The translations under genes and the position numbers were made by a program. DNA of 21,823 nucleotides from a virus. The notes below the pieces were generated by a model. That model had not been told where the DNA came from. It made no database searches and was given only the letters and a program-made list of their open reading frames with translations. The stretch spans positions 1 to 21,823 of the IMG/VR virus record IMGVR_UViG_3300035688_000386. One strand, given 5' to 3'. This document shows, piece after piece, positions 849 through 20,610 of the stretch; position 1 is the stretch's first letter, and the number at the start of each line of letters is the position of its first letter.

Positions 849-2282
849 TTATGCGTGCTCTACCACTACGCTTCTCTTATACCTCTCGGCTCCACCGGTC
901 GTGATGTCAGTGCGGGCAGGCCAATCGCCGCAGAACTTCCACGAGACCGACACCTGGTCTTGCAGGCGGTCGAGAGGAGCGCGGATGATCAGTTGCACGC
1001 GGTCGGTGTTGACCTCGATCGCGTTGTTCGTGATCCTGAACTGTCCGGTCCTTCCGGTCACACCTGCCTCGCTGAGGAACGCCCCACCGATCAGGTCGAT
1101 GTAATACTCATGGATGAGACCCTGACCGAGGAAGAGCGGACGATGGATTTCCACGCCCGTTGTCGACAAGCCCGTGCTGTAAAGCTCACCCGGGAACGGA
1201 TCGTTCTCATCGAACGGAACGGCCGGAGGTGTGACGGTCGCAAGATCGACCGTCGCGGGTTGAGGACATTCACTGTTGCGGAAGGCCAACGTGCCGAGGA
1301 ACTGGCCAAGACAGAACTGCTTGTAAAGCACATAGTCCGGCAAGCCAGTGTTCAGCCGTTGAAATTCTGCATCTGCGAAGATCTGCGTCTGAGAGATCGG
1401 GTCCATGTGGCAGTGGAAGCATCCGTCAGGAAACTCGCTGACGTTGTTGTTCCACATCTTTGCCACCGCCTCGCGCCATTGCGCGAGCTTCCACACATCG
1501 CCCGAGCCGACGTCGACAACCGAGTTGCCTCCGCCAGGTCGGACGATCGCAGACCGATCGTCTGCAATCACATACGCGCGGTGGGCCACCGAGGTGGTTC
1601 CGACCGACAACGTGAGCGTGCCTGGTCCAGTCTCGTCTCCAGCGTTATCGGCTGTCGCTCCAGTGACCAACCGAGAAACTTCCGCGCCGTTGTCCCACAG
1701 CTTGATCTTCAGCGGGTTGTTCGCCGACACTGGATCAAATCTGACCGGAGAACCGGTCGACAGATCTGGACGGCGGGCTCGCGTGAACCCGTTGATCGAG
1801 TTGACATACAGAGACGTCCCGCTCTGCGGGGTCGACCCGTCAGAGCTGATCGCGACGGTGCTGCCAGACAGCGCAGCCGCATACAGACGATTTCGTACCA
1901 CCCGGTTCATCGACTGGGCGGCCCCGAGGCCCATCTGATGGGCGGCCCGGAGGAATTGATTGGCGATCGCTACGTAGCTTGTCGGCAAGTCTACGTCATC
2001 GGTGTCCGCGTACTTCTCGATCGTCATCGACCACTGCTCATATGGCTGCTTTGACGGAACTGGATCCGTGCCGGCCGATAGCGGCTTTTGTTTTGACTTG
2101 CGCAGACCGACGCCGGTGAAGATCATGCTATCACCGACGTTGCCGGGGAAGAGCACTGGTGTGGCCTCACCGCGGAAGAGCATGCGCGGGAAGAGCGCAT
2201 CGTGGAACGCGCGCTCAAGCGCGCCTTCTTGGACGAGGGGGCGAATTTCGGGAGATTGAGTTATCAAAGAAAAGTCCACCAA
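849..2282 (-). CDS. major capsid protein
   Basis: The 477-residue product has the layout of a tailed-phage coat protein that forms the procapsid lattice. The N-terminal segment (LVQEGALERAFHDALFPR, about 16-33) is followed by a central mostly-strand region with RNRLYAAALSGST at 130-142 and a strand-rich C-terminus ending YKRSVVVEHA. It lies two genes after a scaffold-like gene, the usual order. The best start is TTG 2282: GGAG sits 7 bases upstream, inside the last codons of the preceding HNH-like gene. GTG 2279 is the alternative. The N-terminus looks intact, so an internal ATG is unlikely. The assignment rests on position, length and sequence style; no family-specific signature was checked. 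Confidence 0.75.
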   Translation of the reverse strand: MVDFSLITQSPEIRPLVQEGALERAFHDALFPRMLFRGEATPVLFPGNVGDSMIFTGVGLRKSKQKPLSAGTDPVPSKQPYEQWSMTIEKYADTDDVDLPTSYVAIANQFLRAAHQMGLGAAQSMNRVVRNRLYAAALSGSTVAISSDGSTPQSGTSLYVNSINGFTRARRPDLSTGSPVRFDPVSANNPLKIKLWDNGAEVSRLVTGATADNAGDETGPGTLTLSVGTTSVAHRAYVIADDRSAIVRPGGGNSVVDVGSGDVWKLAQWREAVAKMWNNNVSEFPDGCFHCHMDPISQTQIFADAEFQRLNTGLPDYVLYKQFCLGQFLGTLAFRNSECPQPATVDLATVTPPAVPFDENDPFPGELYSTGLSTTGVEIHRPLFLGQGLIHEYYIDLIGGAFLSEAGVTGRTGQFRITNNAIEVNTDRVQLIIRAPLDRLQDQVSVSWKFCGDWPARTDITTGGAERYKRSVVVEHA

Positions 2283-3785: not shown

Positions 3786-4193
3786 TCAGGAGATTGGGGC
3801 GAACACGTCTGTCATATCGACGTCGGATCGCGGAATGTACTCAAGGACGAACCCCGAGACAGTCCCCTCGAACGTGATGGTCTTCCCATCGTCGCTGAGT
3901 CTCGCTACGGTCGCGGACAGTGTTGCAGCAGCGTCACCGATCATCCGGACACCGAATGCGGCTGTGTCTTTCACGGTGACGCGCAGGGCGATGATCGCCA
4001 AGATCGGAGGATTGTGACCGTGCTCATGGTCTGTGATGTCGTGTGCGGCCGCGAGCGTCATACCCGTCTTGGTTATTTTCAGGGGGGTCAGGAGCGTCCC
4101 GAGCTTCACCTTACGCAGGGCATCGGCCAGTGTCTCCGGGTTGGCTTTGTCGAGAACAACTTGGAGGGTCTGAACTTCGTTTGTTGTCGTCAT
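3786..4193 (-). CDS. putative structural protein, paralog of the preceding gene
   Basis: The 135-residue product is clearly similar over its full length to the protein at 4253-4657. Shared blocks include LDKANPETLADALR, VKLGT, TPLK, LSDDG and EYIPRSDVD near the C-terminus; by eye roughly half the positions match. The predicted content is an N-terminal helix and then mostly strands. The gene lies just before the scaffold gene, consistent with a head decoration, cement or minor virion protein, but the fold is not recognised. ATG 4193 has AGGATCG about 5 bases upstream. The 59-base gap before it holds a small hairpin (GCGCC/GGCGC, 4208-4221) and a TAGAAT box without a convincing -35. Confidence 0.65.
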   Translation of the reverse strand: MTTTNEVQTLQVVLDKANPETLADALRKVKLGTLLTPLKITKTGMTLAAAHDITDHEHGHNPPILAIIALRVTVKDTAAFGVRMIGDAAATLSATVARLSDDGKTITFEGTVSGFVLEYIPRSDVDMTDVFAPIS

Positions 4194-4252: not shown

Positions 4253-4657
4253 TCAATCCCGCTTGAACGCCGACGTGATGTCGACGTCAGAGCGCGGGAT
4301 ATACTCGATCACGAAATCTTCGACATGGGCTTCAAATGTCAGGGTCGTCCCATCGTCAGACAGAGCCACCACCGTCGCACTCGGTGTCGCCCCAACATCG
4401 CCGACCATCCTTGCTCCAGCGGCGGCCGCACCAGCCGTGACGTTCAGGGCGATGATCATGAGAACTGGCGGCATGTTGTCGTGCTCGGCGTCCGTCAGAT
4501 CATGAACTTCTGCGCCCGTGAGGCTGGCAAAAGTTTTCTTAAGGGGTGTCAAGATCGTCCCGAGTTTAACCCGTCTCAGTGCATCCGCCAGCGTCTCCGG
4601 ATTCGCCTTGTCGAGAATTGCGGCGATGCTTTCAAATACGGTCGTGGTGCTCATCAT
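4253..4657 (-). CDS. putative structural protein, first of a tandem paralog pair
   Basis: This 134-residue protein starts at ATG 4657 with AAGGAG and a 3-base spacer; the second ATG would also be in frame. It shares with its neighbour (3786-4193) the N-terminal helix LDKANPETLADALRR, the VKLGTILTPLK block, a central Ala/Gly-rich strand region and the C-terminal EYIPRSDVD motif. The pair probably arose by duplication. It is the first gene after a promoter-like element whose -35 box overlaps the stop of the preceding gene. A virion (head) protein is likely from position among head genes; the exact role is unknown. Confidence 0.65.
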   Translation of the reverse strand: MMSTTTVFESIAAILDKANPETLADALRRVKLGTILTPLKKTFASLTGAEVHDLTDAEHDNMPPVLMIIALNVTAGAAAAGARMVGDVGATPSATVVALSDDGTTLTFEAHVEDFVIEYIPRSDVDITSAFKRD

Positions 4658-7278: not shown

Positions 7279-8256
7279 TTACAGGAATATTCTATGGCCG
7301 TCTTGCCAGCGCCACCCAGGAATTCCCCAGTCGCGACGCCATGGGATGAGCGAGCTGCGATCGTTGGGTCTCATAGGTGGGTGAGCCCACGACCGACCGA
7401 CGAATCGCGCACACGCCTTGAGCTCTTTCGGGTCGTCAAGAAGATCCGCATAGTCGTTGGGGAAGATGAACATGCTACCAGGTGGGACAACCTGTCCGTG
7501 CATTACAACAGAATCACCGGCCACCCTGAGATCGAGTCTCTGGCCGGTCGCATCGTCTATGTATTCCGTCCATCTCATCTCCAGGTCTGGCAGCTCCTCG
7601 GCCGACGCCTCGATCGCGTCCGCCTGTGCGCTATTGTAAGCCCAAAGCGACTCTGTCCGGACAATCCGCTCGGCCTGCCACCGCCCATCGCCCAGTGCGT
7701 CCATCACGTCGTCGATCGTTTCGCCCATCGACCGGCCGGACAGGAGTGCCAACGACATCACCTGTTCTGTCGCATCAGCCGCCCGGACTGCCATCTTTGC
7801 CGACAATTCTGTGTGTGCGGCGTGCATGCGATGCTTCCGGATCAATGATGCAGGGCTGTCTCCGTGAATGATTCCAGAAAACCTGCCCGCCTCATCGATC
7901 GGCAGGATGACCTCGGCGCCCCGAAAGTGTCGCTCGAGACGTGCAATGTCCTTAGAGACCGCCCGGACCGCCTCGACCTGGGCCTCGCGAGTCAGATCCC
8001 CCAGGTGCCCGGCAAGTCTGAGGGTGAGCAGCGCCTGGCCTTGTTTGACCTGAGCTAGAAAAATTCTGAGTTGGTGGGCCGTGAACTGATTGCTTGACCG
8101 TCCTCCGAGAGCTCGCAGACGACGTTCGACCAGTCGGACGACATCATCATAGAGATCCCTGGCTCGTCTCACTCCGCCGCGCTCGACCACGCGAGCCAGA
8201 CGCCGTCGATGTTCGTTGAGGATGGACTCAATAGGGGATGGTTTTTTGAGGGCCAT
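7279..8256 (-). CDS. MuF-like head morphogenesis protein
   Basis: I start at ATG 8256 (MALKKPSPIES), which overlaps the TGA of the preceding gene by one base (TGATG). The 325-residue protein has a long helical N-terminal region and a MuF-type C-terminal region. That region carries an Arg-Thr-Glu motif with RTESLWAYNSAQ at about 200-211 and a DDATGQRLDLR...H block at about 234-253 that matches the usual D-x-R ... H pattern. Proteins of this family (Mu gpF / SPP1 gp7) are minor head proteins near the portal, present in a few copies. The usual order is portal followed closely by MuF; here eight genes, including a sugar-modification cassette, lie between them. The stop falls in a small hairpin (7269-7284). 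Confidence 0.75.
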   Translation of the reverse strand: MALKKPSPIESILNEHRRRLARVVERGGVRRARDLYDDVVRLVERRLRALGGRSSNQFTAHQLRIFLAQVKQGQALLTLRLAGHLGDLTREAQVEAVRAVSKDIARLERHFRGAEVILPIDEAGRFSGIIHGDSPASLIRKHRMHAAHTELSAKMAVRAADATEQVMSLALLSGRSMGETIDDVMDALGDGRWQAERIVRTESLWAYNSAQADAIEASAEELPDLEMRWTEYIDDATGQRLDLRVAGDSVVMHGQVVPPGSMFIFPNDYADLLDDPKELKACARFVGRSWAHPPMRPNDRSSLIPWRRDWGIPGWRWQDGHRIFL

Positions 8257-9890
8257 CAACCGCACCACAATCCAGAGCAAGCCAGACAGACTGCCGGCAA
8301 TTTTCTGTCGCCCGTCTGGCACAATCTCAAGGCAGAAAAATATTGTCCCCGCCAATCAATGTGCTCAACGCGACCATTATCGGAGGACGGTCCGGCGCAT
8401 CTCCTGCAGCCGGTGATTGACCCATCGCCGTCGACTCCGATCACACGAAAAGGAGACGCACATCTTAATGGTGTCGGTGAGTCGAACACGATTGGCACTG
8501 GCCAGAGGTCGACAATAGAAGAGTTCGTCAACTCTCGGGCTTTCTCGATCTCGTGCGCCTCATCACTTCCCTCGATGATCGCGTTAGCTCGAAAATACCT
8601 TGACTCATGCCCGCCATGGGGGAGCAGACTGAATAGTCGAACATGCCGAGCGCCGAGCAAGACCGACAAGTCGATGAACTCCCGAATCTTCGCCGCATTC
8701 CTACGGGTGATCACAAACGAGACAGCGGTCTCTACCCCCGCACGCACACACGCGCGGATACCAGAGAGAACTGCATCAAATTGGTCGACTCTGGTCATCA
8801 GCGCGTATTCTTCTCTTGTCGATGAATTAAGCGAGACGTTGACGAACACGGGATGGGATAGGGCAATCTCATCGACTCTCTTCTGCAGAAGAACCCCGTT
8901 GGTGAACAAACTGAATCTGATTCCCCTCTTCAACAACACACCCATGACACCCGACAGTCCAGGGTGGAGCAGCGGCTCGCCGAACCCACCGATTGAACAC
9001 TCTCGGATCGTCGGAAAGCGGTCGATCATTTTCTCGACAGTCAAGGGCGCTATGTCCGCAAACTTCCGAACTCCGGATTCCTGGCGGAGGCAGAACTCGC
9101 ATTTCAGATTGCACCTCGATGTCGGGTAGACGATCAACTCTGTCGGACCGTCAGAAAATTCTCCGACGTAAGAGGCAATCCGACGATAGTCCTGGTTGGC
9201 CTCCCGAAAATCTATCTCACGCTCTTCTGCGGATGTCCCGACAAGCCCGGCGATCGCACCGAGATATGCCGCCTGGTTGATCGGCGTCGGAACCTCCCGC
9301 CATCGGAGTTCTAGCACGCGCGGGTAGTCTGCTACCCACGCCATCCATGGATAACGACGGTGTTTGTGCATCAATCTCTGCCATCGACGGAACGCCATCT
9401 CGGGAGTCTGGAGAGAATAGTGAAGACCGACACATCCATCACGATCGTGTGGTACGTCTGAGAGGAACGTCCTGTATCCTCTGGATTCTAGATCTTTAAC
9501 TTGTGGAACCTCACACGACATCACATCCGACCTGTATGGGGTACTGCGCATCAGAGAGAGTCGGTAGCACTTGAGACCGACGATCGGTCGATCTTCCGCG
9601 TCGCCCCATAGCCAGGAAATATAGATGGCCGTCTTTTCAGACTGAGACTTTAGACCCTCGTAGACCGTCCTGATCGCCCGCGGGTTCAACAACATATCGG
9701 CGTCGACCTGCACGTAATAGTCGGTCTGACACCGATCGATCATCTGCTGGAATGCGACGTTCAGCGGTGCGACGTCGTGTATGATCTCAAGCGTAAACTC
9801 ACAATCCTGGTTGTAGAGTCGTCTTAAACACGTAGGCGTTGACGGCTCTCCAGTGGTGATCAAAAAAACCGTAAGGTCTGCTTTTGACAT
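8256..9890 (-). CDS. fusion of GT2-type glycosyltransferase and radical SAM/SPASM enzyme
   Basis: The 544-residue product has two parts. Residues about 5-215 look like a GT-A glycosyltransferase, with a strand-helix start, the segment TDYYVQVDADMLL (DAD metal motif at 63-65) and no membrane helix. Residues about 245-544 are a radical SAM enzyme. The CX3CX2C cluster is C260, C264 and C267, followed by GGFGEP at 301-306 and a SPASM-like cysteine-rich tail (C477, C495, C498, C524, C535, C538, C543) that may bind an auxiliary FeS cluster. SPASM enzymes usually modify peptides, sometimes sugars. One protein could therefore transfer a sugar and perform radical chemistry on the same substrate. ATG 9890 follows AAGG, just after the upstream GT stop. 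Confidence 0.75.
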   Translation of the reverse strand: MSKADLTVFLITTGEPSTPTCLRRLYNQDCEFTLEIIHDVAPLNVAFQQMIDRCQTDYYVQVDADMLLNPRAIRTVYEGLKSQSEKTAIYISWLWGDAEDRPIVGLKCYRLSLMRSTPYRSDVMSCEVPQVKDLESRGYRTFLSDVPHDRDGCVGLHYSLQTPEMAFRRWQRLMHKHRRYPWMAWVADYPRVLELRWREVPTPINQAAYLGAIAGLVGTSAEEREIDFREANQDYRRIASYVGEFSDGPTELIVYPTSRCNLKCEFCLRQESGVRKFADIAPLTVEKMIDRFPTIRECSIGGFGEPLLHPGLSGVMGVLLKRGIRFSLFTNGVLLQKRVDEIALSHPVFVNVSLNSSTREEYALMTRVDQFDAVLSGIRACVRAGVETAVSFVITRRNAAKIREFIDLSVLLGARHVRLFSLLPHGGHESRYFRANAIIEGSDEAHEIEKARELTNSSIVDLWPVPIVFDSPTPLRCASPFRVIGVDGDGSITGCRRCAGPSSDNGRVEHIDWRGQYFSALRLCQTGDRKLPAVCLACSGLWCG

Positions 9891-9896
9891 CGTGCC

Positions 9897-10850
9897 TTAT
9901 CCTATCGCGAGCGCTCTCTCCAAACACGTCCTCCAGCTCTTGACCCTGATAGTCCAGTCGTATGTCATGGCCGACAATCTCGCCCGGTCACCCATTGAGT
10001 TTATTTTTGGATCGATCGACATACGGGAGATCGCGTCGGCAAACGCATCGACAGACCTGTCGACGATACGGCCATTCTGACAGTCGACGACGATATTCGG
10101 GACGATCCCCACGTTGGTTGAGATCACTGGCCTCCCACAGGCCATCGCCTCCAATATTGGGTTAGGTGTCCCCTCGGTCTTGCTCGCGCATAGACAGACG
10201 GAGATCCTTGAATACCAGGATGGCATCTCGTCCGGCGGTATCTGTCTCTCCACCCGGTCGGCGACAAGCAGCGGTACTCCAGCCCGTGAGCATGCCTCAC
10301 GAATAATTTTTACCCCCTTGACGTCCGGGTTGAACGGCGGCGGATTGTAGTATGGACAGTGATCGCTATTCCCGACCCACCCGACGGTGAACTTGTCCGG
10401 CAGTGGCATTTGACAAAACACATTGGTGTCCACCCCGTCCTCTACTAGACAGACTGGCAGGTTACCGTGTGGAACAACCCGACCAAGCCATTCGTTAGAG
10501 ACGGCCAGCAAGTTTGCGTGCTTGAGGGCGAGTGCGAACTTTACATTGCCGACGTTCTTCCACTCTCCGATCGAGTCGTCAGTCCATGAATATCCATCAT
10601 AGACACACAAGATTGTCCTGTTCGCTCGAACGCGCGCCATGCTGTTGTAAAGAGCCGATGGCCACCAAAAAAGCACAAGCAGATCAACACGAATTTTAGG
10701 ACCGGGCTTCTCCAGCTCCGACAGACAGCAGACGGAGAAATCAAACTCATCCGAGAGTGCGGAGACGATCTGTCTGGTCGTCCGATCGAACGCCCAGCCC
10801 AGACTATCAATGACGAGCAGAACTTTTGGTTTTAAGAGAGGGCGGTCCAT
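9897..10850 (-). CDS. GT-B glycosyltransferase (GT4-like), second of a tandem pair
   Basis: I start at ATG 10850, behind GGAGG with an 8-base spacer, overlapping the previous gene by 19 bases. The 317-residue protein has an N-terminal Rossmann-like start (KPKVLLVIDSLGWAFD), an EDGVDTNVF segment at 137-145, FTVGWVGNS, and the nucleotide-sugar site EGTPNPILEAMACGRPV at 226-242 typical of GT4. Such enzymes move a sugar from a nucleotide donor; donor and acceptor cannot be read from sequence. It is clearly paralogous to the gene before it (shared GWAFD, FWW, YDG-SWT, EDGVDT, VGWVGNS, EGTPNP). Confidence 0.8.
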   Translation of the reverse strand: MDRPLLKPKVLLVIDSLGWAFDRTTRQIVSALSDEFDFSVCCLSELEKPGPKIRVDLLVLFWWPSALYNSMARVRANRTILCVYDGYSWTDDSIGEWKNVGNVKFALALKHANLLAVSNEWLGRVVPHGNLPVCLVEDGVDTNVFCQMPLPDKFTVGWVGNSDHCPYYNPPPFNPDVKGVKIIREACSRAGVPLLVADRVERQIPPDEMPSWYSRISVCLCASKTEGTPNPILEAMACGRPVISTNVGIVPNIVVDCQNGRIVDRSVDAFADAISRMSIDPKINSMGDRARLSAMTYDWTIRVKSWRTCLERALAIG

Positions 10851-11743
10851 AAGGCGGTCCTCCAGTAGGATATTTTGGACCGCCAATCATGCGCCTCTGC
10901 CGCAAGTCGCGCAAGCTTTCCCATATGATGCAGGTCGTGATGATCTTTGAGTTTCGTCAGGGCATCGACGATCGAATCGACACACCTGTTGACGACATAT
11001 CCGTTGCGCTCGTTGATGACCACCCGGCGGACCAACCCGACGTTGGTCGTGATGACGGGTCGACCGCACGCCATCGCCTCAAGCACTGGATTGGGTGTCC
11101 CCTCGCACGAGCTGGCACACACATAGGCGGAGATCTTTGAATACCAGTCGGGCATCTGCTCGAATGCGATCTTTCGAGCTCGCCCCTGCCTGCCGGCGAC
11201 GTCCAGGGTGATCAGACGGACGCCCGCACGATCACATGCCTCGACGATCAACTCCAACCCCTTGATCCCCCTAGATGATGACCTGCTTGCCCCGTGAGAA
11301 CTATTACCCACCCAGCCGACCGCGAATTCTTCTGGCCACTGTCCGGTCGGCCTGAATAGTTCGGTGTCTACCCCGTCCTCGATTATCGTGACCGGCTTAA
11401 TCGACCAGGGGATGATCCGTGCGAGCGCCTCGTTGGCGACAGCGAGAAGGTCAGACTGTAGATAGTTCAGACGAAATTGGCGCATCCCATCCTCGGTCGT
11501 CCACGAGTGGCCATCGTACAGACAGGTGAGGACGCGCTTGACCTTCAGGTTCGCACGCAAAAGCGATGCATAGCCCCACCAAAAAACGACCACCATGTCG
11601 GTCTCGCCCTCAACTATCCTGTCTTGTATCCCGACAGAGAAGTCGAACTCGTGGCCTAAGTGTCGGATGAGTGTCTGGGCAATATGGTCGAACGCCCAGC
11701 CGGGGCGGTCGATGGCGAGCAGGACGCGCGGTATTGACGACAT
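10832..11743 (-). CDS. GT-B glycosyltransferase (GT4-like), first of a tandem pair
   Basis: I start at ATG 11743; the TTG just before it is possible, and the ribosome site is weak either way. The 303-residue product has the same layout as its downstream paralog: PRVLLAIDRPGWAFD at the N-terminus, VVVFWWG, CLYDGHSW, EDGVDTELF at 122-130, AVGWVGNS, and EGTPNPVLEAMACGRPV at 214-230 with the conserved Glu pair of GT4 enzymes. No membrane segment is present, so it should be cytosolic. Its gene follows the unknown gene at 11774 by 30 bases and overlaps the next GT by 19 bases. The three sugar genes form one cassette. Confidence 0.8.
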   Translation of the reverse strand: MSSIPRVLLAIDRPGWAFDHIAQTLIRHLGHEFDFSVGIQDRIVEGETDMVVVFWWGYASLLRANLKVKRVLTCLYDGHSWTTEDGMRQFRLNYLQSDLLAVANEALARIIPWSIKPVTIIEDGVDTELFRPTGQWPEEFAVGWVGNSSHGASRSSSRGIKGLELIVEACDRAGVRLITLDVAGRQGRARKIAFEQMPDWYSKISAYVCASSCEGTPNPVLEAMACGRPVITTNVGLVRRVVINERNGYVVNRCVDSIVDALTKLKDHHDLHHMGKLARLAAEAHDWRSKISYWRTALWTALS

Positions 11744-11773
11744 CAAAGCTTGTGTCTCGGTCCGGGGTCGCGA

Positions 11774-12259
11774 CTAGGCAATCACCCACGCTCCGCCGGC
11801 GATCGTGACGGTCTTGATCTCTCCGGTCGTCTGGTCGTAGAAGCGCATCGAGTTGACCAGCGGGGGGTTCGACCCGTCGATGACGATGAATGATGTTCCG
11901 CTTCCAACGTACATTGCCGGCGCGCCGATCACCAGCTTGTCGGCGTCCATGTCGTCAACGTTGGTGACGTCCTGGTCGTGCATGTCGAGTGCCGAGGATG
12001 CAGCTCCGATGGCGGTCTTGACCGCCGTAAATCCAACGGCCGCTTCGAGCGAGGCGAGCGTCACCGCGTCTGCCTGACCGTCCGGGACAGTCTTGAGCCT
12101 CATATCTGTCGGAATATTCGAGGCCCCACCGAATGCGGTGATCACGGCCGACTTTGTGGCCGCGATGATCACGCTAGCGTTCGGGGCGAGAATTCTTGAC
12201 TCGTAAGGGGCCGGGAGCGGCATGTTGCTTTCAGAGTAGTTGGTTACCATACAGGCCAT
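11774..12259 (-). CDS. unknown phage protein, possibly virion-associated
   Basis: The 161-residue protein begins MACMVTNYSESNMPLPAPYESRIL and continues with an Ala/Val-rich central region (APNASVIIAATKSAVITAFGG), a helical middle part and a strand-rich end (FIVIDGSNPP, MRFYDQTTGEIKTVTI). The C-terminal style recalls short beta-repeat virion proteins, but I recognise no family. ATG 12259 has AAGGA about 8 bases upstream. It stands directly downstream of a promoter-like element and upstream of the glycosyltransferases, so a protein that is itself glycosylated is a natural but untested idea. Confidence 0.55.
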   Translation of the reverse strand: MACMVTNYSESNMPLPAPYESRILAPNASVIIAATKSAVITAFGGASNIPTDMRLKTVPDGQADAVTLASLEAAVGFTAVKTAIGAASSALDMHDQDVTNVDDMDADKLVIGAPAMYVGSGTSFIVIDGSNPPLVNSMRFYDQTTGEIKTVTIAGGAWVIA

Positions 12260-12755: not shown

Positions 12756-13185
12756 GATTTTTCTCCTTGTTGATCTCCGACTTTGGCTCGTTCGCCCGAT
12801 CTTCGTCATGAATATCGTCGTGACACCCGGGAGATCCGTCCGGCTGGTCCGCACATAATGTCACGAGATTTTTTGGATCATTTTTTTTGCCCATCTTCGC
12901 GAGATACTTTGACTGAGGATTATCGAGGTGTCCTTTGTGGTGCAGTGTCAGATTCTTTTTTGCCGAACATCTCTTGCACTGATAGTGGTCACGCCTGAAA
13001 ACATACAGGCATAAAGACGAAGGAAGTCCGCCCTTTCCGTCACTCTCAAGCGTCGCCCCGTGCTCTTTGGCTTCCCTCTGTAGTATCTTGAGCGCGCGAA
13101 TCTCGTCTGGGCTCTGTCTGTCCTCGCGTTTTTTCTTCTCCGACTCTCGATTTTCAGTCACAAGTTTTTTTAGCGCTTCTCCCAC
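12742..13185 (-). CDS. HNH endonuclease
   Basis: This 147-residue protein has a charged helical N-terminus and a complete HNH module: two cysteines (C70, C73), the HH pair (H82, H83), the NLVTLC block (N106-C111), and C121 with H122 and H126. HNH proteins of this type lie beside terminase genes in many tailed phages and may act in packaging-linked cleavage or as homing nucleases. GTG 13185 is used, with GGAG 6 bases upstream overlapping the TGA of the gene before it. Compared with the HNH-like gene at 2284, this one keeps the first catalytic histidines. Confidence 0.8.
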   Translation of the reverse strand: MGEALKKLVTENRESEKKKREDRQSPDEIRALKILQREAKEHGATLESDGKGGLPSSLCLYVFRRDHYQCKRCSAKKNLTLHHKGHLDNPQSKYLAKMGKKNDPKNLVTLCADQPDGSPGCHDDIHDEDRANEPKSEINKEKNHDRH

Positions 13186-13188
13186 GGC

Positions 13189-13719
13189 TCACTCCTTGAC
13201 GGTCGTCTTTGTCTCACACACGGTCTCGTCTGTCTTCGCCGGCGCGATCGTCTCCGTCTTTGCCATGTTCCTGACCGCCGTCTCGACCGTCTCTGTCACC
13301 TGGGCACTCACGGGATTAAGATTTTCTGGAGGCTCAAGGATCTCGACGAGCAATGATTCCCGGAGAGCGCGTGGAATTCGTCTTGACGGGTGCGCGGCCG
13401 CCCGCTCGGCCGCCGGGCGACACCGATCACACGTGCCGACATCGGAGATGACCGCCAAGTCGCCGAACTTGGTCGGGATGGTTGGCACCACTCCGGGCGT
13501 CGGGCTGTTGACCATCAATGCGCCCAGTAGATCTGGCGCATGGGCGAGCAGATCTTTGATTGGCGCGAGTGTGCGAATCCGCGTCGATGCCGGTCGACCG
13601 CAGCCAAGGCATGGTCGGCGCACGCCGAGCGCGATATGGAGCTCGCGTGGGGTCATCAACCCACCCATAAATTTCTTGACCTGCGTTGGCCATCGTTTTT
13701 TGCCGTTAATTTTTTTCAT
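13189..13719 (-). CDS. putative zinc-ribbon phage protein
   Basis: The product is 176 residues: a basic start, a helical segment with MTPRELHIALG, and two CxxC pairs (C37/C40 and C97/C100) that could bind one zinc ion. The last third is low-complexity, rich in Thr, Glu, Val and Ala. ATG 13719 has GGAG with an 8-base spacer, but that site can pair with TCTCC just upstream to form a hairpin. The stop overlaps the HNH gene's ribosome site. Function unknown. Confidence 0.6.
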   Translation of the reverse strand: MKKINGKKRWPTQVKKFMGGLMTPRELHIALGVRRPCLGCGRPASTRIRTLAPIKDLLAHAPDLLGALMVNSPTPGVVPTIPTKFGDLAVISDVGTCDRCRPAAERAAAHPSRRIPRALRESLLVEILEPPENLNPVSAQVTETVETAVRNMAKTETIAPAKTDETVCETKTTVKE

Positions 13720-13725
13720 GGACAG

Positions 13726-13740
13726 ATCTCCCGCGCGGAG
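13726..13740 (-). promoter_or_regulatory. hairpin covering the ribosome site of the zinc-ribbon gene
   Basis: On the minus strand TCTCC pairs with GGAGA around a GCGCG loop, and the GGGAG ribosome site of the gene starting at 13719 forms its 3' arm. A second perfect hairpin (ATCGCC/GGCGAT with a 4-base loop) lies just before it at 13744-13759. Together they fill most of the 49-base gap after the HAD gene and could limit translation. Confidence 0.4.
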
Positions 13741-13743
13741 ACC

Positions 13744-13759
13744 ATCGCCTTTAGGCGAT
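13744..13759 (-). repeat. small perfect hairpin in intergenic gap
   Basis: The minus strand reads ATCGCC TAAA GGCGAT, a 6-pair stem with a 4-base loop. No T-run follows, so a terminator is unlikely. It directly precedes the hairpin that covers the next ribosome site. Confidence 0.5.
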
Positions 13760-13768
13760 TGTGATTGT

Positions 13769-14248
13769 TCAACGCGGCCTCCTCTTTTTTGATCTCGGTT
13801 GGAGTTCTCCGTAAATAAATGCTACACGATCCAATGAGACAGCCTGACATCCAAGACCGAGCTTGACCGCCCGATCATCCAAAAAGAGATCCACACATGG
13901 TTTTCCCTGACGACCGTCGTCCACTGCGTCAAAAACACCGGGAAGCTCGATCGCAACAAAATCTAGCATCTGTTGATAGCGTGCCTCGTTGATCGGCCTC
14001 ATGCGCTCCCACCGCTCACGGTCGACCTTGCGGACGCTCGCCCGGACGAGCGGGTCAAATTGAGAATCCTCACGTAATGATCTGTTGGCGCGCGCGGAAT
14101 ATAATAATAGCACGTGGCCGGCCCGCTTGAGCGCGAGCAGACACTCGCGTGCGTGAGGCATGAACCGGAGGGGCGTCTCGATGTCCTCGTATGCTCGGCC
14201 GTCCATAGAAACGATCGACCCATCGAAATCAAAAGCGATTATCACCAC
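13769..14248 (-). CDS. HAD-superfamily phosphatase-like protein
   Basis: The 159-residue protein carries the HAD hydrolase motifs in order: I, DFDGS at 7-11 with nucleophile D7 and acid D9; II, a strand ending in S51 (LLLYSAR); a candidate Lys at K117; and IV, FLDDRA with D124 and D125. It is short and appears to lack a cap domain. Phage members are often nucleotide or polynucleotide phosphatases, but the substrate is not visible here. GTG 14248 overlaps the TAG of the gene before it by one base (TAGTG). Confidence 0.75.
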   Translation of the reverse strand: MVIIAFDFDGSIVSMDGRAYEDIETPLRFMPHARECLLALKRAGHVLLLYSARANRSLREDSQFDPLVRASVRKVDRERWERMRPINEARYQQMLDFVAIELPGVFDAVDDGRQGKPCVDLFLDDRAVKLGLGCQAVSLDRVAFIYGELQPRSKKRRPR

Positions 14249-14511
14249 TAACCCCTGTTCTTGTCGTGTGCCATCGTCTTCTGCTCATCTCCTGCGAAAT
14301 TTTCTTGCTTGTGCTCTCCTGTCACTCTCCGGACGAGCTGGTATGTGCTGAGTAACTTCTCCATAAGTGACGCATGGCGAGCTTCGACGCTGTGGATATG
14401 CGATGACATTCGCCACAGACGGATCTCCTGCAGTAAGACGATGAGCAGAGTTGTTGATGACAAGGTAGCTTGCCACCCCTCGACGAGAAACCATTGTGCA
14501 AACACGTTCAC
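14248..14511 (-). CDS. small protein with one predicted membrane segment
   Basis: The product has 87 residues. Residues about 12-32 (GWQATLSSTTLLIVLLQEIRLW) are hydrophobic enough for a membrane helix near the N-terminus. The rest is charged, with a helix that may form a coiled coil (HSVEARHASLMEKLLSTYQLVRRV). The GTG start at 14511 overlaps the portal stop by four bases, a coupled arrangement. A holin-like or spanin-like role is conceivable from the single membrane segment, but the position inside the head module does not support it. Function unknown. Confidence 0.55.
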   Translation of the reverse strand: MNVFAQWFLVEGWQATLSSTTLLIVLLQEIRLWRMSSHIHSVEARHASLMEKLLSTYQLVRRVTGEHKQENFAGDEQKTMAHDKNRG

Positions 14512-16241
14512 TCTTCATCACCAGCACCTTCTTCTGAGTAGTTGTCCTCTGTCGTATTATCGTCTCTTGACCCTCCGAACATTCTCGATGCCATCGCCTC
14601 TTCTCGCTCTGCCACCTCGGACTTGATTTTGTCGAGCATCATATGGATGTCTTCGACGCGGAAATACTCTGCAACGAACCTGGCCGCGTGCTCGATGTCG
14701 ATGAGCTTGCCGGCGACGGCCGCAACGGCCGCCCTGACGGCCAGATCAATGTCGGCCAGCAAGGGCTCGAAGTAGTGCGGCCACTGAATGCTCATCATGC
14801 CGCCCTCTCCGAGCTCGTGGTCGATCATCTTGGCTTCTCCCGTTTCCTCGTTGACAACTTTTTTCTTCGGCAGATTGATGACCTGTCTGACGATCTTTCC
14901 CGTCTCTGGGTCGGTCGTAACTGTCGTCTGTGCTTTCCTGACGGCCGCGACCAACATGTCACACAAGAGAATGATCCCGTTCTGCCCATACTGCTCGCGC
15001 AACACGTCTGCCTTGGCGATCATCGCCGCATACTTGCGCTCTATCTCGGTCGCCGTCCTCGCCGACGCGTCCTGGGCCGACGCGTCTAACACACACTGGG
15101 TGACCTCAAGCACGAATGCTCGGAATTTGTCGGCCAGATCCTCGGCCGCCTTTGGACCGGTCGCCGAGATCTCCATGTAGTTGGCGCCCCCGCCCTTCTC
15201 GACCTTGATCGCGTTGTTGTTCCCCTTCTTAACGTCCACCATGTTTTTTGCGTCGGTACTTATGACGACCGTCGGATCCGTATTGGCGATGATCGCACCA
15301 TTGGCGGACGAGAGAAGCGTATCGATCGCATCGATCATCTCGAACGCGCCCAAACAGTCAGGGTCACCGTCGATGTCGTCATCGAGGGGTTGGTTTTGAA
15401 TCCAGACGACCGGACAGAATCCAAGACCATGCTTGACCTGCTTTTGGGCCTGCCAATCAGGCTCTTCTCCATCTCCGACGGGTGCTGGCGCGTAGAGCGT
15501 GTCGGCCTCAATGTCGATCGTTCTCCTGTACCAATATGGGATCTCTTTCCAGACGCCCGTCACGTCTCGTTCTTCTTGGGGGTACATATAACGAATCTCG
15601 ATCGACTTGAGCTTGAAGGTCGACCGGTCGAGCCAGGCGGGCTCACACCACCTGGGGTCGAACGTCTCAAACATGACCTTGCCAGCGACGAACTGAAAGC
15701 CGATGACGGCCGTCCCGACCGCCCCACCGAACGTGCGGGCCTTGATCATCCGCGCCCATAATCGTCCGCTGTCGACCAGTGCGTTCACATAGTCCTCGGT
15801 CTTTGGATCTCCCTCGACCTTGATCGCTGGGTGACGCTTTTCTGAGAACAACAGGCCGGTGAATCGATCGACGATGACCCTTCCGAGCGCGTAGGGCGCC
15901 GTCGGCTTACGAAACTTTACGGGCATCATCTGAGCACCGGCGTCGACAAAGCCGGGCGGGATAGTCACCTGGGTGGCGATCGCTTCATGCTCGATCGGTG
16001 AGGTTGACTGTGATCCGTCCCAATTATAGGCGCGCGCCGCATACTTGGCGCACCGATAGACAGACCACAGATAGTTGAGCTCTTGCTGTCGTGGGCTCAG
16101 ACCAAGCCGCTTGATCCGCTCGCTCGTCTGGGCGGACGTCTCGGATGGTTTGATCCCGCTGCCGGAGTTGATGAACTTCTCGGCGATGCCCATGAGCATC
16201 TGCCGGGCAAGACCGGGTGCCCTGATCGTCCCGCTGCTCAT
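14508..16241 (-). CDS. portal protein
   Basis: The 577-residue product follows the terminase and has the length and layout of a portal, the ring at the capsid vertex through which DNA enters. An N-terminal mixed region is followed by a strand-rich part (RSTFKLKSIEIRYMYP, EIPYWYRRTIDIE), long helices in the second half (AEDLADKFRAFVLEVTQCVLD, IERKYAAMIAKADVLREQYG) and an acidic C-terminus. It starts at ATG 16241, with GGAG 6 bases upstream overlapping the stop of the gene before it; a GTG one codon earlier is the alternative. Confidence 0.8.
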   Translation of the reverse strand: MSSGTIRAPGLARQMLMGIAEKFINSGSGIKPSETSAQTSERIKRLGLSPRQQELNYLWSVYRCAKYAARAYNWDGSQSTSPIEHEAIATQVTIPPGFVDAGAQMMPVKFRKPTAPYALGRVIVDRFTGLLFSEKRHPAIKVEGDPKTEDYVNALVDSGRLWARMIKARTFGGAVGTAVIGFQFVAGKVMFETFDPRWCEPAWLDRSTFKLKSIEIRYMYPQEERDVTGVWKEIPYWYRRTIDIEADTLYAPAPVGDGEEPDWQAQKQVKHGLGFCPVVWIQNQPLDDDIDGDPDCLGAFEMIDAIDTLLSSANGAIIANTDPTVVISTDAKNMVDVKKGNNNAIKVEKGGGANYMEISATGPKAAEDLADKFRAFVLEVTQCVLDASAQDASARTATEIERKYAAMIAKADVLREQYGQNGIILLCDMLVAAVRKAQTTVTTDPETGKIVRQVINLPKKKVVNEETGEAKMIDHELGEGGMMSIQWPHYFEPLLADIDLAVRAAVAAVAGKLIDIEHAARFVAEYFRVEDIHMMLDKIKSEVAEREEAMASRMFGGSRDDNTTEDNYSEEGAGDEE

Positions 16242-16244
16242 CAC

Positions 16245-16658
16245 TTACTCCGATCTGTCGGATGTCGGATCGTCTTGTCTTGCGATCGATCGGTCGCCCA
16301 GGAGGGCGGCCACGCGTGCGAGTTCAAGTGCGGCGGAGACGACGGCCAGACATTTCTCTGCCTTATCCGGATTCGGAATATCAACAGAGGTTTTCTTTTC
16401 TTCGGGATTACAAGAAATACTTGCAAACGGTCGAGCATACCAACCGGCGGCCAACGTGAACGCCTGAGCAACCTCAAGCAGGTTGATCGATAATAATTTT
16501 GACGAGCCCTCTATTCTTTCGTCCATCTTGGCAAGCCCACGAAGATTGTCGATGATCGTCTGGGCGGACGCATGGGCGACAGAATCAAGAACTTTTCTCT
16601 TCTGGTCGTCTGCGTGTGCCTTGTCGAGTTCTAAGCCTGAAAGAGTTGCGTCTGCCAT
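16245..16658 (-). CDS. unknown phage protein between terminase and portal
   Basis: The product has 137 residues, mainly helical, with no recognised domain (MADATLSGLELDKAHADDQK at the start; INLLEVAQAFTLAAGWYARP in the middle; CLAVVSAALELARVAALLGD near the end). ATG 16658 follows AGAGG with a 5-base spacer and lies behind a promoter-like element. The stop abuts the portal ribosome site. A small head-completion or packaging helper is possible from position only. Confidence 0.55.
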   Translation of the reverse strand: MADATLSGLELDKAHADDQKRKVLDSVAHASAQTIIDNLRGLAKMDERIEGSSKLLSINLLEVAQAFTLAAGWYARPFASISCNPEEKKTSVDIPNPDKAEKCLAVVSAALELARVAALLGDRSIARQDDPTSDRSE

Positions 16659-16683
16659 GTTGACCTCTTGGTTGGTTTGACCT

Positions 16684-16712
16684 CTACTACACCGACAGCG
16701 TTAGCGTGACAA
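16684..16712 (-). promoter_or_regulatory. promoter-like element, TTGTCA-N17-TAGTAG
   Basis: The -35 TTGTCA is at 16707-16712, inside the last codons of the terminase gene, and the -10 TAGTAG is at 16684-16689. It is the only copy whose -35 box differs from TTGAC. The -10 lies 25 bases before ATG 16658. It would drive the portal transcription unit. Confidence 0.6.
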
Positions 16713-18131
16713 CAGATTCAACCGACCGACCTCCATGACTGGCGCCGGCGCTTCTTTTGCGTACGTGAGGGCCAGTGCGTCTGCCTCGTTAGGCGAGGCC
16801 ATCTGGCGGGCCTTCATGTCTTCCTTACTCTCAATCTGGATGAGTCCGCGTGATGTCGGCTTCCACTTGATTGACGCCAGCTGGGCGGCCAGATCTTCGT
16901 CGTCGATGTCCAGATTTCCGGCCTCGGCGTCCTCCCGGATTGTCCAGTACCATTCTGCACGGGCGTTTAAAAATCTTTCTTTGTCGACCGGAGATCCTCC
17001 GGCGTTGGCGGCCACTGCCGGGCGACCGAGTTCGTTCAGTCGGTCGAACACACCCGAGCCAATTCCGATAACGTCGATGTTCGCCTTGACCGCCTTAGAT
17101 TCGTCGAGATGCATGACGACCTTGCCGGTCAACGTCATCGTGTCGGTCTTGACGATCTTCTCGCACACACGCGCACGTGCTCCGCGGCGAGCGAGGATGA
17201 TCGACTTGTCTCCACCAAAGCGTGCGACGTCTACACCGAGAATCGTGGGTGCGCCCTGAGCGACCTCGGACTCTCGCAACATCGCCGCCTCGACCAGGTG
17301 GAGGGGAATAAGCGCGTCTGAGGACGACTGTGGGAACTCGGCGAGTACGCGCGAACGGTAGAACGGACTCTCGTTTCCCCACCGTTTGTACTTGTCCGCC
17401 ACCCACCCGGGAGAGACGAGCGAGGGGTATGGTAGGGGTCCCTTGATTTTCTTCTGCCACTCTCCCGACGCGATGTCCTCCTCGACAATCCCGAACTCCG
17501 TGAAGTTCGGTGTATCATAGGCGCTGATCTTGATCTTGTTGGTCCCCGGATTTTTAAACTCATCAAAAAATCGACCGGCCGTGTCTGTCGGGTTGCCGAT
17601 AGAAAGCATGCGGCACGAGTCTGTCGTGAGTACGCCCTCGGCTGAGTCCCAGATTGACCGGTCGACGCCGGCGGCCTCATCGAAGACAACAAGCACGCGC
17701 TTTGCCGAGTGGAGCCCCTGAAATGCATTGGGGTCGTTGGTGGAAAACCCTAGAGCATACCAGCCGTCTTTGATCCTCAGAGCAGTCGTGAGCATCCGCC
17801 CGCTCAACGGTTGTTTTGAACCGGAGTGGGCCATCCGTATCTCTTGCCAGAGAACATTTCTGACCTGTCTGAATGTTGGTGCCGTCGTCAGTGCGACAGA
17901 ACCAGGCTCGCCCATCCACCAAAGGACAGCACGTGCGGCCAGCCAGCTCTTACCAGTCGCGTGGGCGCTCCTGACGGCCGTCCGAGAATTTGAGACCAGG
18001 GAGTTGATGATCTCCTCTTGTTTGGACCATGGCCTAGCGCCCAGCCACTCTCGGACAAAGAGAGATGGATCGGCCTTTGCGCTCTCGATAAACAGCCGCT
18101 GATTTTTATTTAGTTTTTTGATCCGCCGCAC
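16701..18131 (-). CDS. terL: terminase large subunit
   Basis: This is the packaging motor: an N-terminal ATPase that drives DNA into the head and a C-terminal nuclease that cuts concatemers. It starts at GTG 18131, since the longer frame runs through the small-subunit gene; the ribosome site is weak and coupling is likely (26-base overlap). The 476-residue protein shows a Walker A-like SAHATGKS at 55-62, Walker B VLVVFDEA at 146-153, a coupling segment SIGNPT at 177-182, and the RNase H-like nuclease start GVDVARFGGD at 299-308, with further acidic residues near DALALTYA at the end. Length fits the family. Confidence 0.9.
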   Translation of the reverse strand: MRRIKKLNKNQRLFIESAKADPSLFVREWLGARPWSKQEEIINSLVSNSRTAVRSAHATGKSWLAARAVLWWMGEPGSVALTTAPTFRQVRNVLWQEIRMAHSGSKQPLSGRMLTTALRIKDGWYALGFSTNDPNAFQGLHSAKRVLVVFDEAAGVDRSIWDSAEGVLTTDSCRMLSIGNPTDTAGRFFDEFKNPGTNKIKISAYDTPNFTEFGIVEEDIASGEWQKKIKGPLPYPSLVSPGWVADKYKRWGNESPFYRSRVLAEFPQSSSDALIPLHLVEAAMLRESEVAQGAPTILGVDVARFGGDKSIILARRGARARVCEKIVKTDTMTLTGKVVMHLDESKAVKANIDVIGIGSGVFDRLNELGRPAVAANAGGSPVDKERFLNARAEWYWTIREDAEAGNLDIDDEDLAAQLASIKWKPTSRGLIQIESKEDMKARQMASPNEADALALTYAKEAPAPVMEVGRLNLLSR

Positions 18132-18615
18132 GCTCGGCCGCCACGCGTTCTGCAAGTTCGTAGAATGATTCTGTCTGCTGGGTCTTGATCGGTCCACCGC
18201 CTGGACCAGAGATCTCCGCACGATCTTTCCGACCCCATTTTTTTGGATTCTTCCGCTCAAGACGCCAGGCGGCCGCACACCAATTTTTTGCGGAGGCACG
18301 GCGGATGATCTCCAGGTCCGACGCCTCGGACGTTGCCCTTGCTTTTTTTAATGCCAACCAAAAGTTACGAAAGATGGCCTCATCTCGTGAGGGATTGGCA
18401 AGCCTGGCCCTGATCATCCTCTTGTGCTCACGCGCACCTCGGCGCATCCACCGCCGGATGTTCTCCATTGGGCAGCCGGAATAGTCCGCCGCGGTCTCCA
18501 GATAATTTCCTGCCTTGAGCATCATCTCGATCGTTGTCTGTAATTCCGGCGTAAGTTCCCTCGGCCGTCCCATCTTTCTTCCACGCTTGGGACCTTTCTG
18601 ATTATGCCGCGGCAT
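18106..18615 (-). CDS. terS: terminase small subunit
   Basis: This is the DNA-recognition partner of the large terminase. I start at ATG 18615; ATG 18633 inside the end of the previous gene is an alternative. The 169-residue product has a basic N-terminus, a helix-turn-helix around 37-58 (GNYLETAADYSGCPMENIRRWMRRG), a helical centre, and the segment AAWRLERKNPKKWGRKD typical of this class, followed by a short tail. It begins 6 bases after the stop of the radical SAM gene and overlaps the large subunit. Confidence 0.8.
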   Translation of the reverse strand: MPRHNQKGPKRGRKMGRPRELTPELQTTIEMMLKAGNYLETAADYSGCPMENIRRWMRRGAREHKRMIRARLANPSRDEAIFRNFWLALKKARATSEASDLEIIRRASAKNWCAAAWRLERKNPKKWGRKDRAEISGPGGGPIKTQQTESFYELAERVAAERAADQKTK

Positions 18616-18620
18616 TGCAA

Positions 18621-20030
18621 CTAGTCCCACCATCTCTTCTTGATCTTTATTGTAGGCTCTATGTTCGACCATGGCGGAGACTCGTCGATGTTCCATTGTC
18701 GTACAAGATTTTCCGGATCGTATCCAACGGATGAAAGCGCGGCCTCGATCTGTTTTCCGGCCCTCCACGCTTGTTTCCCGCTTGCCGTGAAAATACGCTG
18801 CCCGGCCGTAGCGAGCCAATGGATAATACGGGAAGTGCGCTCGTCGCCACGTATGGTCAATGCCTGAGCAAGACGGGCCGGTGGCGGCGCCACGCCACCG
18901 CGTGCGGCGATGACAATGTTCTTGAGGCGTGGCCAGTTTTGCTTCTTCCCTGGGTGGACAATAGGTAAATGTGAAAAATCAGCATAGGGGTGGATAGGGC
19001 AGCCCCACATTGGCGTGTGAATGGCCGGCGAAAAACTCGACGTGGACAAGAATAGCACGAAGCTATTATGCAGCGCCCGATCGACTTCTGCAAGCGAATC
19101 CCAGAATTCAATCACATCGTCGCGGGTTTCACCCGGCAAATCGCCGATCATGTAGCAGGTTGCCGATCGCATAGGCTCGCCTTTGAGATTCTGCAGTTCA
19201 GTAGCTACGTAGATCAAACCATCAACAAGCGCTTTGCGGCTCGTGACTTTGTGAAATCTGCGGCGCGTGCGTTCCGAGAATCCCTCCACGCCGAATCGTA
19301 CACAGTCAATGCGTTTAAATTTGCGTACCATATCAAGCCGTGTATCGCTGCCAATGTTGTGCTTTCCAAGCTCCAATACGAGCGCGTTCACCTCCCTAAG
19401 CTGCGAGTAGTTGGTTCGGTTCGGGGCAAACAGGGCAACCTGCGTCGTATCGCAAGAACGCAACGCCCTCGCCACATCTTCAAAAGGCTGTTCGCGATAC
19501 GGTTTCGAGAACGCGAGCTGACAAAACGGACAACGATTCTTGCAACCACGGGCCAGCTCGATACGGGTGATTCGACTTTTGCGGTCCTCGACATAAACTT
19601 CGGCTGGTATTATTTCCATCACGGCCTGTTTGCATGGTTTTGTTGGATGCCACACGCCAATGATGCCATAGGGTTCATGTCCGCGCTCAAGCGTTTTGAG
19701 CACTTCAACGATACACGCCTCCCCATCCCCGATAATTGCATAGTGGAAATAGCCTGTCAGTGGTCTTGGGTTGGCAGCCGCCATGCCACCGATAATAATC
19801 ATTGGCTTGCGTTTGCGAGGATCGATACCAAGTTGCCGCAACCACCAAACGAATTCATAGCAATCCTTCCACCAATACAGCGAGACAAAGAGATAGTCGG
19901 CATCTCTAACCGTTCGATGATCTGCTTTTAGGATCGTCGCCTTGGGAAATGCTCTTTTTACCGAGTTGAGCACGACGCTCAAGCCAAGCGTTTGTGTCGA
20001 GTTTCCGAACGCTAACACCGCAATTTTCAT
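18621..20030 (-). CDS. radical SAM protein with degenerate B12-binding-like N-terminus
   Basis: I start at ATG 20030 (GGGAT about 5 bases upstream; GTG 20036 also possible). The 469-residue product has an N-terminal Rossmann-like region (residues about 1-115: KIAVLAFGNSTQ..., IIIGGMAA, YAIIGDGE) like B12-dependent radical SAM enzymes, but without their DxHxxG cobalt motif. A radical SAM core follows, with CX3CX2C at C163, C167 and C170 in ARGCKNRCPFCQ, which makes 5'-deoxyadenosyl radical. The later part (about 330-469) is unassigned. Its N-terminal 42 codons overlap the ParB-like gene in another frame. It lies directly before the terminase. The substrate is unknown. Confidence 0.75.
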   Translation of the reverse strand: MKIAVLAFGNSTQTLGLSVVLNSVKRAFPKATILKADHRTVRDADYLFVSLYWWKDCYEFVWWLRQLGIDPRKRKPMIIIGGMAAANPRPLTGYFHYAIIGDGEACIVEVLKTLERGHEPYGIIGVWHPTKPCKQAVMEIIPAEVYVEDRKSRITRIELARGCKNRCPFCQLAFSKPYREQPFEDVARALRSCDTTQVALFAPNRTNYSQLREVNALVLELGKHNIGSDTRLDMVRKFKRIDCVRFGVEGFSERTRRRFHKVTSRKALVDGLIYVATELQNLKGEPMRSATCYMIGDLPGETRDDVIEFWDSLAEVDRALHNSFVLFLSTSSFSPAIHTPMWGCPIHPYADFSHLPIVHPGKKQNWPRLKNIVIAARGGVAPPPARLAQALTIRGDERTSRIIHWLATAGQRIFTASGKQAWRAGKQIEAALSSVGYDPENLVRQWNIDESPPWSNIEPTIKIKKRWWD

Positions 20031-20610
20031 GCTCACATCCCACTACATAGCCGCCAAAACCCTCGGAAATGGTGACCAGTTCTTTCTTTGCCTTCGCTGC
20101 CGCATCTGCCGCAACAAACACCGCAAAGCGTGTCAACGTTCCTTTGGCTGCAATGGTGCCATCCCCGACGTCTGGTAGTGGCACGTCTTGGATTAAAGCA
20201 TCCAATCGCAACGCTGAAAAATCTTCCTCTCCAATATCGATCTTGATCTCGGACAGAAGTGCGTCCAGGTCCGGAGTGAACTCGCCAGAGATGGCCATCG
20301 AGTTTGCCACAATGTTCGCTGTCTTCTCTTTCTCGATCGGCCAGTCAACCGTGCGCACGGGGAATCTTTCGCCGCCAGACGTAACGACAGCACCACCAAC
20401 AAGTTTGCATCCCCCGGCCTTGAGTGCCACAAGCCGTTGGTGCCCGGCGACAAGGTGGCCTGTGCGCTTGTTCCAGACCAGACCCGACACGTCTCCAAAT
20501 TGTTTAAGCGAGTGTTGGAGTCCAACAAGCGCATCAATCGAAATCTTTCGAGGGTTGTAGGGCGCTGGTTTCAGGTCGTCGATGCTTGTCAGCTTTCTAT
20601 TGTCACCCAT
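19906..20610 (-). CDS. ParB/Srx-fold nuclease-like protein
   Basis: This 234-residue protein begins with a ParB N-terminal fold (IDDLKPAPYNPRKIS at 10-24, then GHQRLVALKAGG at 56-67), found in phage proteins near methylases or terminases and sometimes having nuclease or NTP-binding activity. The middle part (IEKEKTANIVANSMAISGEF) fits the same family. The last about 41 residues are in a segment that overlaps the radical SAM gene in another frame by 125 bases, which is unusually long. ATG 20610 has a weak ribosome site (GAAG). Role in phage DNA metabolism is likely, not proven. Confidence 0.7.
   Translation of the reverse strand: MGDNRKLTSIDDLKPAPYNPRKISIDALVGLQHSLKQFGDVSGLVWNKRTGHLVAGHQRLVALKAGGCKLVGGAVVTSGGERFPVRTVDWPIEKEKTANIVANSMAISGEFTPDLDALLSEIKIDIGEEDFSALRLDALIQDVPLPDVGDGTIAAKGTLTRFAVFVAADAAAKAKKELVTISEGFGGYVVGCEHENCGVSVRKLDTNAWLERRAQLGKKSISQGDDPKSRSSNG

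Follow-up and report, generated by a model that had tools for sequence, protein, structure and literature searches.

The stretch of DNA analysed here (21,823 nucleotides, referred to throughout as the window) is catalogued in IMG/VR as a virus, and along its minus strand runs a series of genes that are ordinary for a tailed phage (Table 1). Within this run, an open reading frame read from 9890 to 8256 encodes P0001, a protein of 544 residues. A sequence-only reading had proposed this frame and had suggested that it joins a GT-A domain to a radical SAM domain. The frame is confirmed on the minus strand, and the pairing is borne out by the Pfam Radical_SAM match and by the model and fold matches of the N-terminal domain. 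The gene is a single open frame with its catalytic motifs intact, and the opposite (plus) strand of the interval is dense with stop codons.

Table 1. Positions in the window of the fusion gene, its predicted domains and motifs, and neighbouring genes
Feature	Position	Strand	Evidence or remark
GT-A–radical SAM fusion protein, 544 aa (P0001)	8256..9890	(-)	
Predicted GT-A (GT2-like) glycosyltransferase domain, residues 1-240	9171..9890	(-)	AlphaFold model, Foldseek
DxD motif D63-A64-D65	9696..9704	(-)	
Radical SAM core, residues ~249-430	8601..9146	(-)	PF04055 E=7.1e-17
CX3CX2C motif C260/C264/C267, SAM-binding [4Fe-4S]	9090..9113	(-)	
Predicted C-terminal twitch-type domain, Cys 477, 495, 535, 538	8277..8462	(-)	
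TGATG overlap, fusion-gene stop / MuF-like gene start	8254..8258	(-)	sequence
MuF-like head morphogenesis / minor head protein	7279..8256	(-)	phrog_2468 E=2.2e-6
GT4 glycosyltransferase, EX7E motif EGTPNPILE	9897..10850	(-)	PF13692 E=1.9e-18
GT4 glycosyltransferase, EX7E motif EGTPNPVLE	10832..11743	(-)	PF13692 E=8.3e-17
161-aa protein	11774..12259	(-)	directly upstream of GT4 pair
Major head protein	849..2282	(-)	phrog_1357 E=1.7e-9
Portal protein	14508..16244	(-)	SPP1_portal E=5e-7
Terminase large subunit	16701..18299	(-)	phrog_2 E=2.3e-37

The fusion gene starts 7 bases past the stop codon of a GT4 glycosyltransferase gene, which in turn overlaps a second GT4 gene. At its other end, its stop codon and the start codon (ATG) of the MuF-like head gene overlap by one base in the sequence TGATG, an arrangement predicted to couple the translation of the two. 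Together with the 7-base gap, this overlap shows the module to be an integral part of the structural operon. None of the three enzymes in the window has a strong membrane segment (maximum Kyte-Doolittle 1.34). Pfam and PHROG gave no match for the 161-aa protein encoded beside the GT4 pair; by position alone it might be speculated to be a possible virion acceptor.

Two other regions of the window may be mentioned. A second radical SAM gene (18621-20036, minus strand), with matches of the Radical_SAM_N2 and B12-binding type, lies just before the terminase genes and overlaps a ParB-like gene (19906-20610, minus strand). Another contig, L004, is 99.5% identical to the window across window positions 12940-19311, the fusion gene lying beyond its reach. 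In L004 a segment of ~1.7 kb (98-1811) replaces window positions 19312-20553 and reads, by eye, as an IS200/IS605-like pair of a 144-aa TnpA-like and a 398-aa TnpB-like protein. The insert takes the place of the C-terminal part of ParB and of ~242 residues at the start of the second radical SAM protein, and is apparently a natural disruption of both genes. Elsewhere, a tandem paralogous pair (3786-4193 and 4253-4657, minus strand; ~135 aa each) possibly encodes decoration or tail proteins.

The two halves of the fusion protein

Residues 1-240 are not matched by the Pfam glycosyltransferase models, GT2 included. As a profile of the domain also matched no sequence in the PDB, a comparison of folds was needed. 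The AlphaFold model of these residues, built from an alignment of seven sequences, has a pLDDT of 91.7, and nearly all of the best 50 PDB fold matches listed by Foldseek are GT-A glycosyltransferases, among them PcManGT, WrtF, SpsA, TarP and chondroitin polymerase. The suggestion that this region folds as a glycosyltransferase is therefore upheld. Comparison of a profile of 17 distinct homologues with Pfam-verified and GT2-like domains gave an hhalign E of 1.6e-5 and a probability of 79%, where control profiles of GT4 and radical SAM gave 0.31 and 0.18 (about 0.2-0.3% probability). The DAD motif is found exactly at residues 63-65, as had been noted from the sequence; Asp63 and Asp65 are invariant across the 17 distinct homologues, and the surrounding motif, Q-[VI]-D-x-D-M, is likewise invariant in 17/17. 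On the basis of sequence, model and comparison we assign the N-terminal half to the GT-A (GT2-like) glycosyltransferases, its DxD metal and nucleotide-sugar site being intact. While it shares the fold and the invariant DxD with the GT2 and GT-A enzymes SpsA, PcManGT, WrtF and TarP, it differs from them in lying below the detection of Pfam GT2, with a TM score of ~0.5, and it forms a phage family of its own, whose members mostly follow a GT4 or are joined to one in a single protein.

The second half belongs to the radical SAM superfamily, with a CX3CX2C motif inside a PF04055 domain that scores above the curated cut-off (residues 255-408; 62.5 bits against 29.5). The three cysteines of the motif are again exactly where they had been placed, and they are aligned in all ten radical SAM sequences compared. 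The model of the whole protein has a pLDDT of 90.1 and a pTM of 0.78, and its top Foldseek match in the PDB is BlsE (7vob, E=9.6e-14), with SkfB, DesII, SuiB, PqqE and MoaA also matched and anSME among the best. These matches mix enzymes acting on sugars (BlsE, DesII) with enzymes acting on peptides (SkfB, SuiB, PqqE) and do not separate the two.

The C-terminal tail had been described as SPASM-like with seven cysteines. Seven cysteines are indeed present past residue 470 (477, 495, 498, 524, 535, 538 and 543), but only those at 477, 495, 535 and 538 are kept in all ten sequences. A SPASM domain has the pattern CX9-15GX4C-gap-CX2CX5CX3C-gap-C and holds two auxiliary clusters, the twitch domain being its truncation with one cluster (PMC6231123). 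The first half of the pattern fits at 477-495 with a spacing within range (C477-x17-C495, containing GX4C), while at the second half C535 and C538 form a CX2C, the motif CX2CX5CX3C is absent from the tail, and the Pfam SPASM model (PF13186) gives no match. The SPASM part of the description was therefore rejected. Ligands of a twitch cluster are three or four cysteines, situated before and after a β-hairpin with two more after a helix, and the order in the tail is Cys477, a hairpin (strands 483-486 and 491-493), Cys495, a helix (516-525), Cys535 and Cys538. With four conserved cysteines around a hairpin and helix and no CX2CX5CX3C, the tail is predicted to be of the twitch type and to provide the site for one auxiliary cluster with four cysteine ligands in a pattern like that of BtrN, whose auxiliary cluster has four (PMC9012708).

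BtrN, the 2-deoxy-scyllo-inosamine dehydrogenase of the butirosin pathway, resembles the phage protein, as do other twitch enzymes, in its CX3CX2C core and C-terminal four-cysteine site, and its substrate is carbohydrate-like. Unlike the phage protein it has no glycosyltransferase domain, and it is absent among the best 50 fold matches listed. Among the solved structures nearest in fold to the radical SAM half are those of BlsE, a cytosylglucuronate decarboxylase (7vob, as above), and DesII, a TDP-sugar deaminase (8hzv, 3e-12), both of which work on nucleotide-bound sugars. Neither is fused to a glycosyltransferase, however, the identity is ~20%, and the fusion protein falls far below every cut-off of the NCBIfam equivalogs for BlsE (38.5 against 400 bits), MoaA and PqqE.

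Recurrence of the join and the company it keeps

To gather related loci, viral contigs were scanned several times and cellular genomes once, and the loci obtained were then searched with profiles in all six frames. Single-sequence searches of viral contigs, with the full protein or a 68-aa piece of the radical SAM domain, gave nothing useful, and it was a four-sequence alignment of the radical SAM domain that opened the family to detection. Tblastn in phages and plasmids returned generic radical SAM matches only; the phage records MT837634 and MT837344 found in this way were dismissed as generic SPASM/MoaA matches.

The GT-A domain is found in 16 distinct contigs, the window included, and in seven of them it is fused to the radical SAM domain (the window, L009 (=L010), L011, L089, L170, L187 and L192). 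The four closest fusions are 38-44% identical to the window protein over its full length. Two fusions are longer, that of L009 (=L010) having the order GT2-GT4-GTA-rSAM in 1204 aa and that of L170 the order GT4-GTA-rSAM. In L173 and L178 a GT4-GT4-GTA arrangement is followed immediately by a separate radical SAM gene, and in L198 a weaker radical SAM gene lies next door to the GT-A gene. The SAM-cluster motif of L009/L010 reads CNFKCVFGTTPC (CX3CX6C), not CX3CX2C. As the window is a single metagenomic contig and the near-identical L004 stops short of the fusion gene, the fusion might have been an artefact of assembly or annotation, or a decayed gene. This can effectively be dismissed: the identical join in six other distinct contigs, all with full-length fusions, excludes both chance and a fusion made during assembly, and the frame is single and open with intact motifs. 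The join, on whose presence in relatives the sequence-only reading had hung, thus recurs six times fused and twice more as adjacent genes. The trees are too weakly supported for a count of fusion events.

In the remaining six of the 16 contigs (L188-190, L191, L193, L194, L195/197 and L196) no radical SAM domain was detected, though these records may be fragments. Because all six have the GT-A domain with a GT4, the radical step appears not to be essential to the module. The GT4 is more constant: a gene of the same GT4 family (at least 40 bits) is present at 14/16 GT-A loci, against 2/77 viral loci with radical SAM only, and at the other two, L009 and L170, Pfam places a GT4 inside the fusion, so that GT4 accompanies GT-A in 16/16. 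That GT4 glycosyltransferases go with the GT-A domain in every relative and that the radical half is optional goes beyond what the sequence-only reading had noted. The radical SAM domains of the module belong to a clade that scores 250-412 bits, other radical SAM proteins reaching at most 137, and that is separated from the others by a branch supported at 97/93. Members of this clade also occur without the GT-A domain (L012, L175/176 and L177).

A scan of 84,980 cellular species, keyed on radical SAM motifs and so covering only such GT-A domains as are joined to them, yielded a single full-length relative: L089, from a Bipolaricaulota MAG. Its fusion gene lies just downstream of a phage TerL (phrog_38, 4e-97) and portal (phrog_146, 6e-50), and the N-terminal domain was found in 1/100 Bipolaricaulota genomes searched, the other 99 being without it, so that an origin as a host gene was rejected. 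The long cellular relatives of the radical SAM half consist of radical SAM and SPASM domains with no glycosyltransferase. The fusion and its module thus look phage-specific.

The late-gene setting recurs, with TerL and portal in L089, portal and tape measure in L170, the major head protein in L173, and sheath, tape measure and major head protein nearby in L193 and L196. The gene directly after the fusion gene in L011 (9856-11226) has an intein splicing domain just below the Pfam cut-off, and its product is likely a structural protein. In L009 (9581-10720) and L170 (11353-12618) the downstream gene seems to join a ParB/sulfiredoxin-like segment, recognised by eye, to a methyltransferase domain, detected by Pfam in L009 only. 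That the enzymes glycosylate and modify the bases of phage DNA seems highly improbable. Phage glycosyltransferases are capable of DNA hypermodification, according to work cited in PMC12619734, and the window has its second radical SAM gene adjoining a ParB-like gene; against this, genes of the thymidylate synthase or hydroxymethylase type occur in 1/19 module-bearing records only and the module sits among structural genes.

Other neighbours point to the making of a glycan. NAD-dependent sugar epimerases lie beside the module in L089, L178 and L187, and methyltransferases near it in L009, L011 and L187. Sulfotransferase-like genes lie beside it in L089 (9365-10273), L187 (11687-12517) and L192 (12414-13307), with matches that are weak and below the Pfam cut-off; their presence in three distinct contigs makes a sulfated phage glycan possible. 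The clade members without GT-A are accompanied by a cytidylyltransferase in L175 and L177, NeuB in L177 and glycosyltransferases in L012. In L177 the NeuB and cytidylyltransferase genes near the radical SAM gene occupy 7824-8534 and 11284-12138, possibly a phage-encoded nonulosonic acid pathway.

Because of these sulfotransferase-like, epimerase, methyltransferase, cytidylyltransferase and NeuB neighbours, the genomic context would favour a sugar over a peptide as substrate of the radical SAM domain, even though the fold matches include both kinds. The competing idea is a two-step, RiPP-like process in which a peptide or a protein of the virion is altered by the radical SAM half (through crosslinking, epimerisation or thioether formation) and also receives a sugar from the GT half. 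It would agree with SkfB, SuiB, PqqE and anSME being among the best fold matches and with the frequent peptide-directed activity of SPASM and twitch enzymes (PMC6231123). We consider it unlikely, since GT-A (1-240) and radical SAM with twitch (~249-544) leave no room for a separate peptide-recognition (RRE) domain, no conserved precursor-like short ORF was identified, and radical SAM proteins of the same clade without GT-A adjoin the NDP-sugar genes just described.

A proposed role in virion glycosylation

We propose that the fusion is a bifunctional, phage-specific glycan enzyme within a GT4 + GT-A + radical SAM module that makes a virion glycan edited by radical chemistry, a reading to which we give about an even chance of being right. 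In this scheme, two soluble GT4 enzymes and the GT-A domain would assemble a short cytoplasmic glycan at a late stage of infection. The fused radical SAM domain would generate a 5'-deoxyadenosyl radical and abstract hydrogen from a carbon of the glycan's sugar, and the auxiliary cluster would take up the electron; the sugar would thereby be dehydrogenated, epimerised or rearranged in some other way, much as BtrN acts on 2-deoxy-scyllo-inosamine. The acceptor would most likely be a head or tail protein of the virion, which is favoured because in the window the module shows translational coupling to head morphogenesis genes, and in relatives it lies amid genes for portal, capsid, sheath and tape measure. 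Only tentatively do we suggest the more specific form, in which one and the same polypeptide would attach a sugar to a virion protein and afterwards alter that sugar through radical SAM chemistry. The sequence-only reading had likewise supposed that a sugar could be added first and the sugar or the peptide altered next.

In other settings, phage glycosyltransferases are also known to act on host surface glycans or on DNA, and phage glycosyltransferase clusters are usually classed as generic surface or DNA modifiers. It seems rather doubtful that the module remodels host cell-surface polysaccharide, for superinfection exclusion or a change of serotype, instead of the virion. Glycosyltransferase clusters of pelagimyophages have been interpreted in that way (PMC7029224), and epimerases, NeuB and sulfotransferase-like genes occur near the module in relatives, but the module in the window is within a structural run and translationally coupled to the MuF-like head gene, its three enzymes are without a strong membrane segment, and no flippase or GtrA-like gene came to notice beside it.

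Phage-encoded glycosyltransferases are present here and in mycobacteriophages, where they are thought to decorate the structural proteins of capsid and tail tube (work cited in PMC12619734). Pelagimyophages have glycosyltransferases and radical SAM genes in a shared hypervariable region beside tail fibre genes, though as separate cassettes, with no fusion or functional link proposed in the portion of PMC7029224 drawn on. Both domains of the fusion are already known. No characterised phage protein of this domain order was found in the open-licence literature, in keeping with what had been supposed from the sequence, nor was any published description of a GT–radical SAM fusion, of a phage-restricted GT-A family or of a GT4 + GT-A + radical SAM module, all of which appear to be undescribed. 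To our knowledge, the described virion glycosylation systems of the mycobacteriophage type include no radical SAM enzyme.

A conserved fusion of GT-A with a predicted twitch radical SAM domain, accompanied by GT4 in every case and often located among structural genes, suggests both a particular chemistry that can be tested, the radical editing of a sugar, and a particular target, the virion. The work also defines a phage-restricted GT-A family missed by Pfam, and the combination of GT4, GT-A and radical SAM is a marker for finding such phages, which probably employ the fusion in making an unusual sugar decoration, its most likely site being the phage particle itself. If the more specific form of the proposal is true, the particle would carry a glycan beyond recognition by enzymes of the host and the environment, and both the virion modification and the GT–radical SAM tandem enzyme would be of a new kind.
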